This document shows positions 5,892-56,400 of a stretch of DNA of 64,000 bases, piece after piece. Position numbers and translations under genes: made by a program. The notes under the pieces were generated by a model, which did no database searches, was not told the DNA's origin, and saw only the letters and a list, made by a program, of their open reading frames with translations. Position 1 is the first letter of the stretch. Each line of letters begins with the position of its first letter. Source of the DNA: Deltaproteobacteria bacterium HGW-Deltaproteobacteria-13 (lineage in GTDB: Bacteria; Desulfobacterota; Syntrophia; Syntrophales; Smithellaceae); the NCBI GenBank assembly GCA_002840555.1, contig PHBJ01000005.1, positions 95,634-159,633 of the forward strand, in the 5' to 3' direction.

Positions 5892-8468
5892 TTAAGCTTT
5901 CCTGATACTGACATGAACGTCTTCAACCCAGCCCATGCCCATGGGGTCATTCTTTTTCAGCAATTTAGGATCCTTCTGGGGAATTAAATCGCCATCCCGG
6001 TAACCAAAATTGGCGGCTACTTTCAGGTTCTTGGCCCGATGGCCAATACCGTGGAACAACAGGACGCAGTCCTTTCTAGCCACACGCTTCGTCAGATGCA
6101 CTTTGGCTTTCACCGGCCTCGGAAGATCTTTCATGTAGTCCGGATTGTTTTCGAGGATGGCCAAGTCGCCCTCGGCGATACCCAGATCCTTACCGGCTTC
6201 CGGATGAATCCAGACGCAGTCCATGAAGTTCTTTTCCGTGACTTGCTTCAGGACCGGGTTGTTGATAAAGTTCGGGTCGGCGTGCATGTGCCACGCTGCC
6301 CTGGTAATGAGCAGAGAAAACTTAAACTTGCCCTCGGAACCTTGCCAACGAGCGGCCCACTTGGGCAGAGGATCGAAGCCCACCTCGATGAATTCGTGGA
6401 TGTAGAGCCGGACCCTGCCATTCGGACGGCCGTAGCCGATCTCCTGGAGTTGTTTGTAATCCACATAGGGTTTGTTGTCGATCCAGAATCCGCCTTTTTT
6501 TATAAACTCGGCGCTATTCTGCGCAGCGCCCGCTTGTTGGACGGCCACATCACTCAAGTTCATGGGGATCAATTTCTTTGGATCGCCGCTTCCGTCAGTG
6601 GTCCAGTACTTGGGCGCTAATGCCAGACCGATCTTGGAGGCAAAACTGCCCCAGCCGATCTGATCACTGGGAGATTTCTGAACGGGAACACCTCCGACAA
6701 GACAGGGGTTTTTCGGATAGTAGAGGCGCAGGTCCAGCTTTGCCTCCTCGTACTGATGGGGTGCCGGGATGACATAATCGCACCAGTAGCCCACATCGTC
6801 CAAGTAGAGGTTCCAGTCCACGACAAGGCCCATCTTCTCCAAAGCCGCTTCCGCCATTTGGGGCTGAATCATGGACAGCAGGCCCCGGTGGGGATTGCGG
6901 AAGAAGACCGCCTTAGCCCGGTTAGTCTTGTACATGCCGAAACCGACCATCCCGTAGTGTCCCGGCGCCGAGAAATCCTTCTTCCGATAGATGTTGTCGG
7001 TAATCGGAAACTCATTGCGAAAATCGACGGGTTCTGCCGGTTGTTCGGGGTATGGCTCGCGGATGGGGGCGATATCGTCGAGCCAGGGAATCTTGACACC
7101 GTGATGGAGGAGAATGCCGCCATCATGATCGATAGCTCCGGTTAAGCTGTTAAGAATGTTGATGGCATGTCTCAAGCGCCAGCTGTTGGAGTAGTTGGGA
7201 CCGGCAGCATCGCGTTTGAGGGTCGGGATGAAAGAGCGAGGCGCGGCGGCGGCGAATTCAAGAGCGATCCGCTTGATGTCCTTTGCCGGCACATCGCATA
7301 GCGGTGCGGCCCAGGCGGGTGTGTACGTCGTTGTGTCTTCGCGAAGCAGCTGGAAGACCGTCTTGACCTTCACTTGTTCCCCGTTGAATTCACCCTGGAA
7401 AGCCCCTTCGAGGGCCGGTGCGTGACACTCGTCAATGGGCTCCACCTTCTTGTCCTTCGTGCACCAGGCCTGAAAATTGCCATTGGCATCTTTCAGGGGC
7501 ATCTTTGTGTCCAAATTAACCAAGGCAGTGGCATCAGAGTATTTTTTCAGAAAATCCACATTATACTTTTTACCGGCCATTATGGTCTGAATCATGGCAA
7601 GGGACACGGCGAGATCCGTTCCCGGTTTGATGGCATGGAATTCCTTGGCATAGCCATCAGCCATAGGCGTCCGGACCGGGTTGAACATGACAATCTTGCA
7701 GCCGTTCTTCTTCCCTCGGGCTATATGGTTGAGGGCGCCGGCCTTCCCGCACTTCGAGAAGGAGTCGAAGCCAAACCAAACCTGATACTTGGCGTTGTCG
7801 TAGTCATAACCGACGATCTGATGACTCGGCGTGTATGTGCTGGAATAGAACTTGTTGGGCGGGTTCGTGATGGCCAGGCAGTTCGTATAGTAGTGTGTGC
7901 CAAAGCACTCTGTCCGCTGATCGGACCGGGTGGCACCGATAGACTGGCATAAACGGTTCGTGTAGGGATCACCGGGAGAGCAAAAGAGAATCTCCTGAGG
8001 CTTGAAGGTTTTCAGGCGTTCAATAACCTCATTTACCGCATCGCTTGTCTTCATGACGACCCAGCCGGGATCGCTGTCGGTACCCTTTTTCGCGTTGGTC
8101 CGCTTCAGGGAAACCATCAACCGGTCGGGGTTGTACATGGCATCGACAAATCCCATAGCTTTGATGCAGAATTTTCCGTGAGAAATAGGATCCTCGGGTC
8201 GGCCTTCAATGGTCAGCGCCCTTTCGAGCCCCGTCGCCGGATCCACGCCTACAACTACCTTGTAGGCGCAGTCGATCTCACAGGCCCGTGCGCAGACCTG
8301 AAGTACTTTCTTGTTAATTTGATAGGGTGGCTTCTCCTGGGGATGATCCCCGAAGGCCCAGGCTGCCTGCATATTTCTGAAGGGAAATGCCGTCATAGCC
8401 GTGGCAATTCCCGTAGCGCCTGCCAGTTTTAAAAAACTTCGTCTGGGTATTTTAAACTTTTCTTCCAT
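5892..8468 (-). CDS. Tat-exported molybdopterin oxidoreductase, catalytic subunit (DMSO reductase family)
   Basis: A protein of about 858 residues with a twin-arginine signal (PRRSFLKLAGATG) and a [4Fe-4S] motif of the form C-x3-C-x3-C followed by a fourth Cys in GKFCIKA, then the bis-MGD domains and a C-terminal dinucleotide-binding domain (ENNPDY, GIGHRA). It acts in the periplasm with the adjacent Fe-S subunit. Family members reduce or oxidise sulfur, arsenic, selenium, nitrogen or carbon compounds; the substrate here cannot be assigned. A GTG 24 bases upstream is a possible start, but it overlaps the AAGGAGGT ribosome site, so ATG at 8468 is preferred although its spacing is long. ModE-like and TorD-like neighbours fit the assignment. 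Confidence 0.9.
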   Translation of the reverse strand: MEEKFKIPRRSFLKLAGATGIATAMTAFPFRNMQAAWAFGDHPQEKPPYQINKKVLQVCARACEIDCAYKVVVGVDPATGLERALTIEGRPEDPISHGKFCIKAMGFVDAMYNPDRLMVSLKRTNAKKGTDSDPGWVVMKTSDAVNEVIERLKTFKPQEILFCSPGDPYTNRLCQSIGATRSDQRTECFGTHYYTNCLAITNPPNKFYSSTYTPSHQIVGYDYDNAKYQVWFGFDSFSKCGKAGALNHIARGKKNGCKIVMFNPVRTPMADGYAKEFHAIKPGTDLAVSLAMIQTIMAGKKYNVDFLKKYSDATALVNLDTKMPLKDANGNFQAWCTKDKKVEPIDECHAPALEGAFQGEFNGEQVKVKTVFQLLREDTTTYTPAWAAPLCDVPAKDIKRIALEFAAAAPRSFIPTLKRDAAGPNYSNSWRLRHAINILNSLTGAIDHDGGILLHHGVKIPWLDDIAPIREPYPEQPAEPVDFRNEFPITDNIYRKKDFSAPGHYGMVGFGMYKTNRAKAVFFRNPHRGLLSMIQPQMAEAALEKMGLVVDWNLYLDDVGYWCDYVIPAPHQYEEAKLDLRLYYPKNPCLVGGVPVQKSPSDQIGWGSFASKIGLALAPKYWTTDGSGDPKKLIPMNLSDVAVQQAGAAQNSAEFIKKGGFWIDNKPYVDYKQLQEIGYGRPNGRVRLYIHEFIEVGFDPLPKWAARWQGSEGKFKFSLLITRAAWHMHADPNFINNPVLKQVTEKNFMDCVWIHPEAGKDLGIAEGDLAILENNPDYMKDLPRPVKAKVHLTKRVARKDCVLLFHGIGHRAKNLKVAANFGYRDGDLIPQKDPKLLKKNDPMGMGWVEDVHVSIRKA

Positions 8469-46133: not shown

Positions 46134-46337
46134 TCACTTTTTCCCGATGGTGGAAATTTTAAAGGGAAAATACAGCGGGCAGAAACCTATTGCACTTGTC
46201 AAAATAAATACGACCGCCAGTATGCCGAGGATAATCGCTGCCGTGCCGGAAAGGTTATCCGTCATGTAAAGAATACCAACAACGATGGCCAATAATACTC
46301 TGATAGTCCTGTCGATTATTCCCATATTCTTTTGCAT
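46134..46337 (-). CDS. DUF2892 small membrane protein (YgaP-like C-terminal region)
   Basis: 67 residues with two membrane helices and the family motifs NMGIIDRTIRVLLAI and GFCPLYFPF. In other bacteria this domain occurs alone or behind a rhodanese. ATG 46337 is favoured over 46343 because the AAGGAG site would touch the latter. It follows thioredoxin and a small candidate selenoprotein on the same strand, implying a thiol or sulfur role. Confidence 0.9.
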   Translation of the reverse strand: MQKNMGIIDRTIRVLLAIVVGILYMTDNLSGTAAIILGILAVVFILTSAIGFCPLYFPFKISTIGKK

Positions 46338-46382
46338 ATGCATCTCCTTTCATCTGATAAAACAAATAATTTTTGCTAAAAG

Positions 46383-46544
46383 TTACTCATCTTTTCTGGA
46401 GTCCGGCAATGCTTTTCCCTGCTTCCTGTCCTCGACCGGACAGGCAGGTTTCACTCAGGTGGAAACTCCCAGCCTGGGTAAAAGCCATACCTGCAGGAAA
46501 AGCCATGCTAATATTATAATAATAAAAATCAGAAAGTCACTCAT
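46383..46544 (-). CDS. Small membrane selenoprotein candidate downstream of thioredoxin
   Basis: 53 residues if TGA at 46455-46457 is selenocysteine 30. The sequence is a strong N-terminal membrane helix (DFLIFIIIILAWLFLQVWLL, residues 3-22), then PRLGVST-U-VKPACPV, then a charged tail ending in TAA. Sec30 and Cys35 could form a selenenylsulfide at the membrane face. The ATG has an AAGGTGA site and lies 20 bases after the thioredoxin stop. A stable hairpin with loop GGUCGA begins 17 nt from the UGA. Without recoding, a 29-residue membrane peptide would result. Function unknown; thioredoxin is the natural reductant. Confidence 0.78.
46418..46448 (-). promoter_or_regulatory. Candidate bacterial SECIS element 2
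   Basis: Transcribed strand: a lower stem CCTG/CAGG, an AAG bulge, and an upper 7-bp stem CCTGTCC/GGACAGG (46444-46438 with 46431-46425) closing the loop GGTCGA (46437-46432). The loop starts with GG and lies 17 nt after the UGA; GGUC also occurs in the E. coli fdhF SECIS loop. This is the most convincing of the three hairpins. Confidence 0.75.
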
Positions 46545-46564
46545 TTTTATTCACCTTATACCGG

Positions 46565-46900
46565 CTAATTCAGGTTACGATTAATAAGATCGGCTAATTG
46601 ATTTTTTGATGCCATGCCAACCGTGGTATCCTTTACCGTTCCATCTTTCATGATCAGCAGCGTAGGAATACTTCTAACGCCGTATTGAGCTGATATTTTA
46701 GGATTATCATCGACATTAACCTTCACGACATTAACTTGATCGCCATAAGCTCCAGCAAGCTCCTCCAGAATTGGACCGATTGCACGGCAAGGACCGCACC
46801 ACGGAGCCCAGAAATCTACCAGAACGAGTTTATTAGCCCTCAAAACCATTGTTTCAAAATTACTGTCATCCGCATGTTTAACCAATTCCTGTTTACTCAT
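46565..46900 (-). CDS. trxA: Thioredoxin
   Basis: 111 residues with the WCGPC active site (VDFWAPWCGPCRAIGP) and the cis-proline VRSIPTLLI. Cytoplasmic dithiol reductant. A GGAGGAAAG site precedes the ATG. It heads a small operon with the membrane selenoprotein candidate and the DUF2892 protein. An FNR-type palindrome about 100 bases upstream is shared with the divergent Crp/Fnr gene. Confidence 0.96.
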   Translation of the reverse strand: MSKQELVKHADDSNFETMVLRANKLVLVDFWAPWCGPCRAIGPILEELAGAYGDQVNVVKVNVDDNPKISAQYGVRSIPTLLIMKDGTVKDTTVGMASKNQLADLINRNLN

Positions 46901-47037: not shown

Positions 47038-47718
47038 ATGGATATTATCAAACAAATACAAGATATTGCCCTGTTTAGAGGCGTGTCGGCAGAAAATTTA
47101 AAACTGTTGGCCTCTCAGGCGATATATAAAAAATTTAAGTCTGGTGATTTAGTAATTGGTGAGACAGATCAGATCCGGTCATTCTATGTGGTGATCGCCG
47201 GCCAGTTAAAACTCTACAAGAGTTCTGCTGAAGGAAGGGAGCAGACTTTATCGCTTTTGAGTCCGGGTGATCCCTTTGGTTTGTGCACAGCCTTTGCCAC
47301 GGATTCATTTCCCGCCAGTGCCATGGCCATTGAAGAAAGCTCTGTCTTGATCATTCCCGGCGAATTAATGGAAGCTATCGCCAAAAAAGAACCCACGCTG
47401 CTTCTTAACATTATCCAGATACTTTCCCAGCGACTCAAGGACGCAATGACACTTATAGAATCTCTGGCCCTGAAGGAAATACCTGAAAGGCTTTCAGCTT
47501 TCCTTCTCCATGCTCTTTCCAAGGATGCGGATGAAAAGAAAAATAAATTGGAATTGACTATCTCTCACAGGGAGCTTTCCAAGATTCTTGGATCAACACC
47601 CGAAGCTCTTTCCCGTGCATTAAGAAAAATGAGCAACGACAGAATCCTTGTTGTGGAGGGTCGTACAATCACAATTCTAGATAGACAAGCGTTAGAAGAA
47701 CTTGCGCAGGGAGAATAA
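47038..47718 (+). CDS. Crp/Fnr-family transcriptional regulator
   Basis: 226 residues: cyclic-nucleotide-type sensor domain (about 10-125), dimer helix and C-terminal HTH (LTISHRELSKILGSTPEALSRALRKMSNDRIL). The SHRELSKILGSTPEALSR recognition region fits a protein that reads FNR-like sites. The N-terminal cysteine cluster of FNR is absent, so it is not an oxygen sensor of the classical type; haem- or redox-sensing (DNR-like) or a small ligand is possible. The matching box just upstream and before 50734 suggests a local regulon. Confidence 0.9.
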   Translation: MDIIKQIQDIALFRGVSAENLKLLASQAIYKKFKSGDLVIGETDQIRSFYVVIAGQLKLYKSSAEGREQTLSLLSPGDPFGLCTAFATDSFPASAMAIEESSVLIIPGELMEAIAKKEPTLLLNIIQILSQRLKDAMTLIESLALKEIPERLSAFLLHALSKDADEKKNKLELTISHRELSKILGSTPEALSRALRKMSNDRILVVEGRTITILDRQALEELAQGE

Positions 47719-53402: not shown

Positions 53403-56400
53403 TTATTTCTGTAGACTGCGGCTGCGCCAGATCATGTAGATCGCGGGATAAATGATGAGTTCCAGGAGGGTGGAGGAAATCACGCCGCCCACCATCGGCG
53501 CGGCAATGCGTTTCATGATGTCGGCGCCTGCACCGTGGCTGAACATGATCGGAATCAAGCCGGCCAGAATGACACTCACCGTCATGATCTTGGGCCGAAT
53601 TCGTTTGACGGCTCCGAACATGACGGCATGATGCAAATCGTTTTCGGTTTTCAGCAAACCCTCTTTCTTCCACTTCTCATAAGCAAGATCAAGGTACAGG
53701 AGCATGATCACGCCTGTTTCGGCATCGAGGCCCGCCAGAGCAATGATCCCAACCCATACGGCAATACTCATATTGTAATTGAGCAAATACAAAAACCAGA
53801 AAGATCCGACCAGCGAAAAAGGCACCGCGAGAAAAACGATTATCGTTTTGGTCACAGAGCGCGTGTTGAAATAAAGCAGAATAAAAATAATCAGCAGTGT
53901 AAATGGAATAATCACTTTGAGACGCTCGTGCGTTTTGAGGATGTATTCATACTCGCCGCTCCAGGCCAGCCGGTAGCCTTCAGGCATTTTGACGATTGCC
54001 GCTTTTTTTTGCGCCTCCTGCACATAGCTGCCGACATCGCGTCCGGCAATATCAATATAGACGTAAGCGGTCAAAAGTCCTTCTTCGCTTTTGACGGCCG
54101 TGGGACCTCTTAAAATATTAAAGTCGGCAAGCTCGCCCATGGGCACTTGCAGGATACCCCCTGAAGAGGCCATGCCGGCGGCGCTGACACCGGCATTGAC
54201 AGGCGTCATCACCGGCACAAGAATGCGTTTGAGTTTTTCCACGTCATTGCGTAATTCCCGCGGATAGCGGATATTCACGGGATAACGCGCCCGGCCTTCG
54301 ACGGTTGTGGTCAGATTCATTCCGCCGATAGCGGTCTGGATTATTTCGTTGACGTCATCCACGGCCAGGCCATATCTGGCGATGGCGTCTCTTTTGATGA
54401 CAATATCCAGGAAATAGCCGGTTGCCACTCTTTCCGCGTAAACACTGCGTGTGCCCGGAATATCGCGCAGCTGCTGCTCGAGCTGCATACCGATTTTTTC
54501 AATGACTTCCAGATTAGGGCCAAGGATTTTTATGCCGACGGGCGTGCGGATGCCCGTGGCCAGCATGTCGATGCGCGCTTTGATCGGCATGGTAAAGGAA
54601 TTGGCCACACCGGGAATGTTGAGCGCGTCGTTCATTTCATCTTTGATTTTTTCAGCGGTCATGCCGGCGCGCCATTGGTTTTCCGGTTTCAGGTTGATAA
54701 CCGTTTCAAACATTTCCAGGGGCGCGGGGTCCGTCGCCGTTTCGGCACGGCCGGCTTTTCCGAAGACCTGCTGCACTTCGGGAATCTTCATCAATAATTC
54801 ATCCTGCATTTGCAGCAGTTTGGCCGCCTCCGACACGGACGCGCCCGGCATGGTCACCGGCATGTAAAAAAGCGAGCCTTCGTAAAGAGGCGGCATAAAT
54901 TCCGTGCCGAGTTTCATAAAGGGATAAACGGTCACAGCCATAATAATGAGGGCAATGACAATGACGGTCTTGCGGAAACGCAAAGCCAGATGCGCTACCG
55001 GTTCATAAATTTTGTGAAGAACAAGGCTCACCGGATTTTTTTCTTCCGGACGGATTTTCCCCCGGATAAATAACGTCATCAGCACCGGTGTCAGCGTGAT
55101 CGCGAGAAACGATGAAAAGAGCATGGCAAAAGTTTTGGTATAGGCCAGCGGCTTGAAAAGCCTTCCGGCCTGAGCCTGAAGTGTAAACACCGGTAAAAAC
55201 GCAACGGTAATCACTAAAAGCGAAAAGAAAAGCGAAGGCCCTACTTCACGGGCAGCTTCTATAATCACATCCGCTCTGCTGCCGGGACTGCCCTGGTTAG
55301 CCCAGTCTTCGAGCTTCTTATGAGCGTTTTCCACCATAATGATGGCGGCATCCACCATCGCGCCGATGGCAATGGCAATGCCGGAAAGGCTCATGATGTT
55401 CGAGGTCACGCCCAGATAATACATGCTGATAAAGGCCATGAGAATGGCGATGGGCAGCGTCAGGATCACGACAAAAGCACTCGGCAGATGAAACAGGAAA
55501 ATCAGACAGACAATACTCACGGCCAGGGCAAGCTTGATGATTTCATCTTTGAGCGTGGCAATCGAACGGTTGATCAGATCGGAGCGATCATAGGTGGTGA
55601 CGATTTTCACGCCTTTGGGAAGACTGGGCGCGATGTCCTTATTGATTTTATCCTTGACCCGTTCAATGACATTGAGAACGTTTTCACCGAAACGGACAAT
55701 AACGATCCCTCCGGCGACCTCGCCCTTACCGTCGAGTTCCGCCAGTCCCCGGCGGATTTCCGGTCCGAGCTGGACGCGGGCGACATCTTTCAAATAAACG
55801 GGCGTGCCTGTTGCACTATTGCTCACGGCAATGTCTTCCAGATCCTTGACGGCTTTGATATAGCCGCGCCCCCGCACCATGTATTCCGTGCCGGAAAAAT
55901 CAAGCACCCGGCCTTCCACGTCGCGGTTGCTCTTGCGGACGGCTTCCATAACTTTCGTGATGGGAACATTATAAGCGCTCAGGCGGTTGGGATCGACTGT
56001 AATCTGGTATTGATTGACAAAACCGCCGACGCTGGCCACTTGCGCCACGCCTTGCACACTCTCCAATCCCAGTTTGACAACATAATCCTGCAGGGAACGA
56101 AGCTGGGCAAGATCAAGCTGTTTGCCTTCATCCACAATGGCGTAAGAAAATCCCCAGCCGAGGCTGGTGGCATCGGGACCCAAAACCGGATTGACGTCAG
56201 CGGGAATTTTGTTTTTGACCGCCTGAAGGTATTCCAGAATGCGGCTTCGGGCCCAATAGATATCGGTTCCTTCTTCAAAAATAACATAAATGAAGGAGCT
56301 TCCAAGATAGGAAAAACCGCGGACCGCCTGTACGTGCGGCGCCGCAAGCAGTGTGGACGTGATGGGATAAGTAATCTGGTCTTCCACCAGATCGGGACTG

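Follow-up and report, generated by a model that had tools for sequence, protein, structure and literature searches.

A small selenoprotein gene beside thioredoxin

We analyzed a stretch of 64,000 nucleotides (the window) from contig PHBJ01000005.1 of Deltaproteobacteria bacterium HGW-Deltaproteobacteria-13, in which a short reading frame with an internal TGA lies between genes for thioredoxin and a DUF2892 protein. The frame occupies positions 46383..46544 of the minus strand, from an ATG at 46544 to a TAA at 46385-46383. When the TGA is read as selenocysteine (Sec, U), the product is MSDFLIFIIIILAWLFLQVWLLPRLGVST-U-VKPACPVEDRKQGKALPDSRKDE, a protein of 53 residues that is followed by the TAA. 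Sec is residue 30 (codon at 46455..46457, minus strand), and ordinary annotation would end the gene at residue 29. A Shine-Dalgarno-like AAGGTG (46552..46557, minus strand) is located 7 nt 5′ of the ATG, and such a motif occurs in 79 of 86 aligned family members. An earlier note, made from the letters of the window alone, had described the frame, its ribosome site and its location between the two neighbors. All of these are present, on a strand that the note did not give.

Conservation on both sides of the UGA

Conservation statistics were based on the 86 aligned members, which have 85 distinct cores, with positions counted from Sec as 0. The TGA is present in 86/86 members, which come from many genera, and also in the edge-of-family matches that we read, and neither TAA nor TAG ever occurs at the Sec codon. 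Among the 85 cores, P-7, G-4 and U are invariant (100%), and I/V-3 (99%), Q or N at -12 and R/K-6 (98% each), and W-16, L-8 and T-1 (97% each) are close to it. Downstream of the UGA, Cys+5 is found in 95% of the cores and in 79/79 gap-free members. Its codon is TGT in 47 members and TGC in 35, a silent change as expected of coding sequence. Differences at codon positions 1/2/3 have frequencies of 0.35/0.15/0.53 upstream of the UGA, and of 0.40/0.27/0.50 over the five codons that follow it. Past codon +5, this signal is blurred in the region that the selenocysteine insertion sequence (SECIS) shares with a variable charged tail. A lack of conservation past the TGA, or of Sec machinery in the genome, was what the earlier note thought would speak against a selenoprotein; the conserved Cys+5 and the genes described below show that neither is the case.

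Some members depart from the usual form. Genomes of f97/g196 (L193-L196) have two in-frame UGAs, in the contexts G[IL]PSUGAP... and PTUDG[PQ][ST]C, with a hairpin after each. Members in f60/g202 have U-x7-C, U-x5-C also occurs among other members, and those of f49 end in a late Cys. At the order level, one set of loci (L174, L178-L180) has Sec in U[ML]VQ.. with no Cys anywhere, and another (L175-L177, L181) places its Cys at +2, in U[IML]CPDGKDS; where the order-level subfamilies have a Cys, it is at +2 or later. Some genomes (G131, G137, G141) hold the order-level variant beside a canonical copy. The Sec-x4-Cys pair of the earlier note is therefore common, but not universal, given the members with Sec and no Cys, with U-x5-C or U-x7-C, or with two Sec residues. 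The window genome (G000) itself has a 5′-truncated remnant copy on contig C23 at 54410-54475 (L040 about 6400-6540), which reads WLLPHMGVST-U-VRQACPVDKEN... and has no start codon or full helix.

A conserved SECIS hairpin and the Sec machinery

The minus strand of the window folds into a bacterial-type SECIS hairpin at 46418..46448, with 6+5 bp, an AAG bulge and the loop GGUCGA (46437-46432), which starts 17 nt past the UGA. These are the two-part 11-bp stem, loop and spacing that had been reported from inspection. The folding energy is -19 kcal/mol, with z -2.66 relative to dinucleotide shuffles and z -3.17 relative to synonymous recodings of the same peptide.

At 84 loci, we compared the region from the UGA to +42 nt with 200 synonymous recodings drawn from local codon usage. 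The mean z was -1.74, 95% of loci were below zero, and half reached p 0.05 or less. Thus, the stem-loop is kept beyond protein-coding need while its position and sequence change. A t-test over the 84 loci gives p 1e-24, which overstates the certainty because the loci are related, and the consistency among hairpin geometries carries more weight. There are three main geometries: a 6-nt loop at 17 nt, a 4-nt AGGU-type loop at 16 nt and a 3-nt GGA loop at 23 nt past the UGA. Loops contain GG at 67/84 loci, and contain GG or start in G at 78/84. Several pair types were seen at many stem positions, although pair counts alone are no test, since the hairpin picker maximizes pairing.

The window genome (3.5 Mb, 29 contigs) encodes SelB, which scores over the curated cut-off, SelA (620 bits) and tRNA-Sec. 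Two tRNA-Sec-like genes, at C22:49388-49481 and C20:108148-108241 (L079, L080), score 75 and 51 bits, and ARAGORN calls both as tRNA-SeC with anticodon TCA. The second, on the same contig as SelA, could be a tRNA-Sec of divergent or alternative type. A separate 114-nt tRNA-like Rfam match at C21:23437-23550 (L041) scores 37 bits and has no ARAGORN call.

We regard it as almost certain, from these sequence features, that the gene is a genuine selenoprotein gene, whose UGA would be decoded as Sec by SelB and tRNA-Sec with the in-frame SECIS. A reading of the UGA as Trp is not needed, given the Sec machinery and the SECIS.

Distribution and the search for cysteine forms

A protein search found the family gene in 49/99 near relatives, and every match had the in-frame TGA. 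With a 28-row profile, 78/155 genomes of the class were positive, as were 165/395 genomes drawn across the phylum (~42%), corresponding to 109/246 genera. The count is stable: it was unchanged with a broader profile of 49 rows and a stricter threshold. The recurrence of the frame, the TGA and the downstream residues in relatives is not due to chance. Nearly all matches have exactly one in-frame TGA. A few stop-free matches were considered as Sec-less forms, but in the DNA that we sampled the match ends just before a TGA that is present. Another stop-free match, in G114:C81 (L185), is weak and chance-like, at 15 bits.

No form with Cys in place of Sec was found in the near-relative, class or phylum searches. 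This absence is informative because U was entered as Cys in the profiles, so that the score of a Cys form would be no lower than that of the TGA form. A narrow pattern, in which Sec was back-translated to Cys codons and which is blind to the TGA form, was run against 84,980 genomes and agrees with this absence within its limits: its only match was due to chance and fell within an unrelated Sphingomonas frame of 263 aa. In 299 genomes of another phylum, which was reached via the Sphingomonas genome and is presumably Pseudomonadota, a search without its own positive control found no homologue, and plasmid and phage collections likewise yielded none. The earlier note had suggested looking for short homologues with TGA or Cys at this position; the former are abundant, and the latter did not appear in any of these searches.

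Genomic context

The thioredoxin gene (46565..46900, minus strand; PF00085, E 5e-32) encodes a WCGPC protein and lies directly upstream of the selenoprotein gene, which starts 20 nt after its end. The two genes are likely on the same transcript, and it is plausible that this thioredoxin is the reductant of the selenoprotein. The YgaP-like transmembrane (DUF2892) gene (46134..46343, minus strand; PF11127, E 9e-20) begins ~39 nt downstream. A CRP/FNR-type regulator, recognized by eye from its sequence, is encoded at 47038..47718 on the plus strand, divergent from the thioredoxin gene, and is kept in most loci of the family of the window genome (the home family). We found no call for an intrinsic terminator near the gene, and the hairpin is not followed by a T-run.

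We counted contexts by hand after removing duplicates, and took a thioredoxin gene as upstream if it was within 160 nt. Such a gene precedes 21/32 home-family loci and 3/3 sampled loci of a second GTDB family (f52), and 0/50 loci elsewhere. The thioredoxin operon that the earlier note described thus holds for these two families and not for the selenoprotein family at large. The home-family layout is crp divergent from trx, then the selenoprotein gene, and sometimes DUF2892, which is downstream in 11/32 loci. Other neighbors include genes for MobB, HD, Usp, ArsR, MerR, 3D-domain, ferredoxin, sigma factor and cytochrome proteins. Given that neighbors vary outside the home family and f52, the gene behaves as an independent unit. 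At three loci from distant families (L153, L161, L170), a convergent cluster with CcdA/DsbD_TM-type and thioredoxin-like genes lies within about 1.4 kb.

A proposed selenol at the membrane surface

A single-sequence AlphaFold2 (AF2) model has one transmembrane helix at residues 2-25 (46470..46541, minus strand), with a predicted local distance difference test score of about 91 over residues 1-20, followed by a low-confidence, disordered tail. The helix and its end carry the conserved W14, Q/N18 and LP[RK]xG interface motif. The mean net charge is -0.5 on the N-terminal six residues versus +2.4 on the Sec side, and the C-terminal value exceeds the N-terminal one in 77/86 members. By the positive-inside rule, this bias suggests that the Sec tail is in the cytoplasm, the compartment of thioredoxin. 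We infer that the product is probably a bitopic mini-protein, with a short N-terminus outside, the helix at 2-25, and an LP[RK]xG[VI]xT-U loop and Lys/Arg-rich tail on the cytoplasmic face. W14 and the polar Q/N18, both conserved, share one face of the helix, which suggests partner docking or self-association.

A redox role for a membrane-surface selenol is our leading reading of function. A selenoprotein whose selenol is held at the membrane surface and reduced by thioredoxin seems, on balance, the best explanation of the observations as a whole. The catalytic scheme in which Sec30 attacks, Cys35 resolves and thioredoxin re-reduces is more tentative, and we would put it slightly below an even chance. 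The selenol would be held at the cytoplasmic surface of the inner membrane, where Sec30 could attack an oxidized substrate at or in the membrane, such as a peroxide, a persulfide or polysulfide, a quinone or the disulfide of another protein. In the usual form of the protein, oxidized Sec30 would form a selenenylsulfide with Cys35 (U-x4-C) as the resolving residue, and in forms without this Cys another thiol would take its place. A cytoplasmic thioredoxin, encoded upstream in the window beside the divergent CRP/FNR-type regulator, would then re-reduce the selenenylsulfide.

Several points weigh against this interpretation. The lack of adjacent thioredoxin genes outside two GTDB families means that thioredoxin as a dedicated partner is not general. 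Since some members have no Cys at all, the U-x4-C cycle is not universal, and the predicted topology has the charge bias as its one basis. As to decoding, SelB scores over the cut-off in 353/395 phylum genomes, and the family gene occurs in 157/353 of these versus 8/42 without a full match (Fisher p 0.0015, counts by hand). This co-occurrence is weak evidence because almost every genome of the phylum has SelB, and the eight draft genomes carry the family gene without a full SelB match.

We weighed four other explanations. In the first, the protein is a redox sensor or regulatory subunit, whose helix binds a larger membrane protein through the W14 and Q/N18 face, such that a sensitive switch at Sec30 alters the activity of the partner. 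Small bitopic bacterial proteins often work in this way, W14 (97%) and Q/N18 (98%) are conserved like the active-site motif, and the neighborhood has no fixed enzyme partner. However, a constant membrane partner gene was not found among these neighborhoods either, and the total absence of Cys forms favors demanding chemistry over simple sensing. We therefore consider a sensor unlikely, although it is the strongest of the four.

A second explanation, that the selenolate is a metal or metalloid ligand that captures or delivers a soft metal or selenium at the membrane, appears improbable. It would account for an invariant Sec with a variable Cys partner and for the MerR- or ArsR-type regulators beside some loci (L168, L160). 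Such neighbors, however, occur at a minority of loci only, there is no CxxC-like metal site, and the usual U-x4-C spacing and the thioredoxin neighbor suit redox chemistry better.

The third explanation is the membrane redox relay proposed by the earlier note, in which a thiol/selenol pathway takes electrons from thioredoxin in the cytoplasm and delivers them to the periplasm. The thioredoxin neighbor in the home family and the CcdA- and thioredoxin-like genes near three distant loci are in its favor. However, a single helix with one redox cluster, on one side and in a predicted cytoplasmic tail, offers no path across the membrane, the helix and N-terminus of the window protein have no Cys, and the thioredoxin linkage is not general. 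We consider the relay very improbable, and a redox site at the membrane surface is more economical.

Scarcely any weight remains for the last explanation, a true stop at the UGA that ends a conserved 29-residue membrane peptide ahead of a terminator or regulatory hairpin: the better conservation before the TGA and the blurred codon signal after codon +5 would fit it, but the silently varying Cys+5 codon and basic tail in many genera, the constant TGA, the hairpin with no T-run or terminator call, the second UGA with its own hairpin and the Sec machinery all argue for decoding.

Novelty and comparison with known systems

Searches of Pfam-A, NCBIfam release 20 (June 2026), PHROGs and PDB gave no significant match for the family; the few weak library matches, with E from 0.01 to 0.1, each involve one to three members and fall short of significance. 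An Rfam search of the window found nothing, and a literature search by motif returned unrelated words only. Among the 119 prokaryotic selenoprotein families and subfamilies inventoried in PMC13188914 (2026), none has TU-x4-C with the LP[RK]xG motif, although the family may have been mentioned elsewhere before. The same inventory states that very few selenoproteins lack Cys homologues and that Cys/Sec pairs underlie the main methods of homology-based discovery. This dependence, together with a reliance on longer reading frames, would explain why an apparently Sec-exclusive family was overlooked and is missing from inventories. Judging from sequence, we have high confidence that the selenoprotein family is real and widespread. 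It is previously uncatalogued, in line with the unannotated small membrane selenoprotein that the earlier note had described.

The family also seems rather likely to be a large, apparently Sec-exclusive one that serves an old function of the phylum at the cytoplasmic face of the membrane, with no Cys substitution surviving in >100 genera. Its presence in about two in five phylum genomes, and in none of the curated libraries tested, illustrates how small size and the UGA hide the bacterial selenoproteome. With its apparently strict need for Sec, this protein of 53 residues allows a direct test of why selenium is used in place of sulfur. The family points to redox chemistry that depends on selenium, takes place at the membrane surface and has gone unrecognized. 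LP[RK]xG[VI]xTU is an annotation target that can be used at once.

The animal proteins SELENOK and SELENOS are likewise small, cross the membrane with one helix and have Sec in a cytosolic tail. This is a likeness of architecture only: they use another SECIS system, their Sec is close to the C-terminal end of a longer tail, and no sequence relationship is expected. TsoA/B/C/X/Y and the SaoC-type proteins (NCBIfam NF045695 and others) are likewise recently recognized, uncharacterized bacterial selenoproteins, although the window family does not match their models. The YgaP-like DUF2892 protein is also a small membrane protein and sometimes a neighbor, but it is a separate gene of a separate Pfam family, without Sec. 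Unlike most known bacterial selenoprotein families, which have Cys homologues, the window family shows none. Like them, it combines an in-frame UGA with a GG-loop hairpin about 16-25 nt downstream, in a genome with SelA, SelB and tRNA-Sec.
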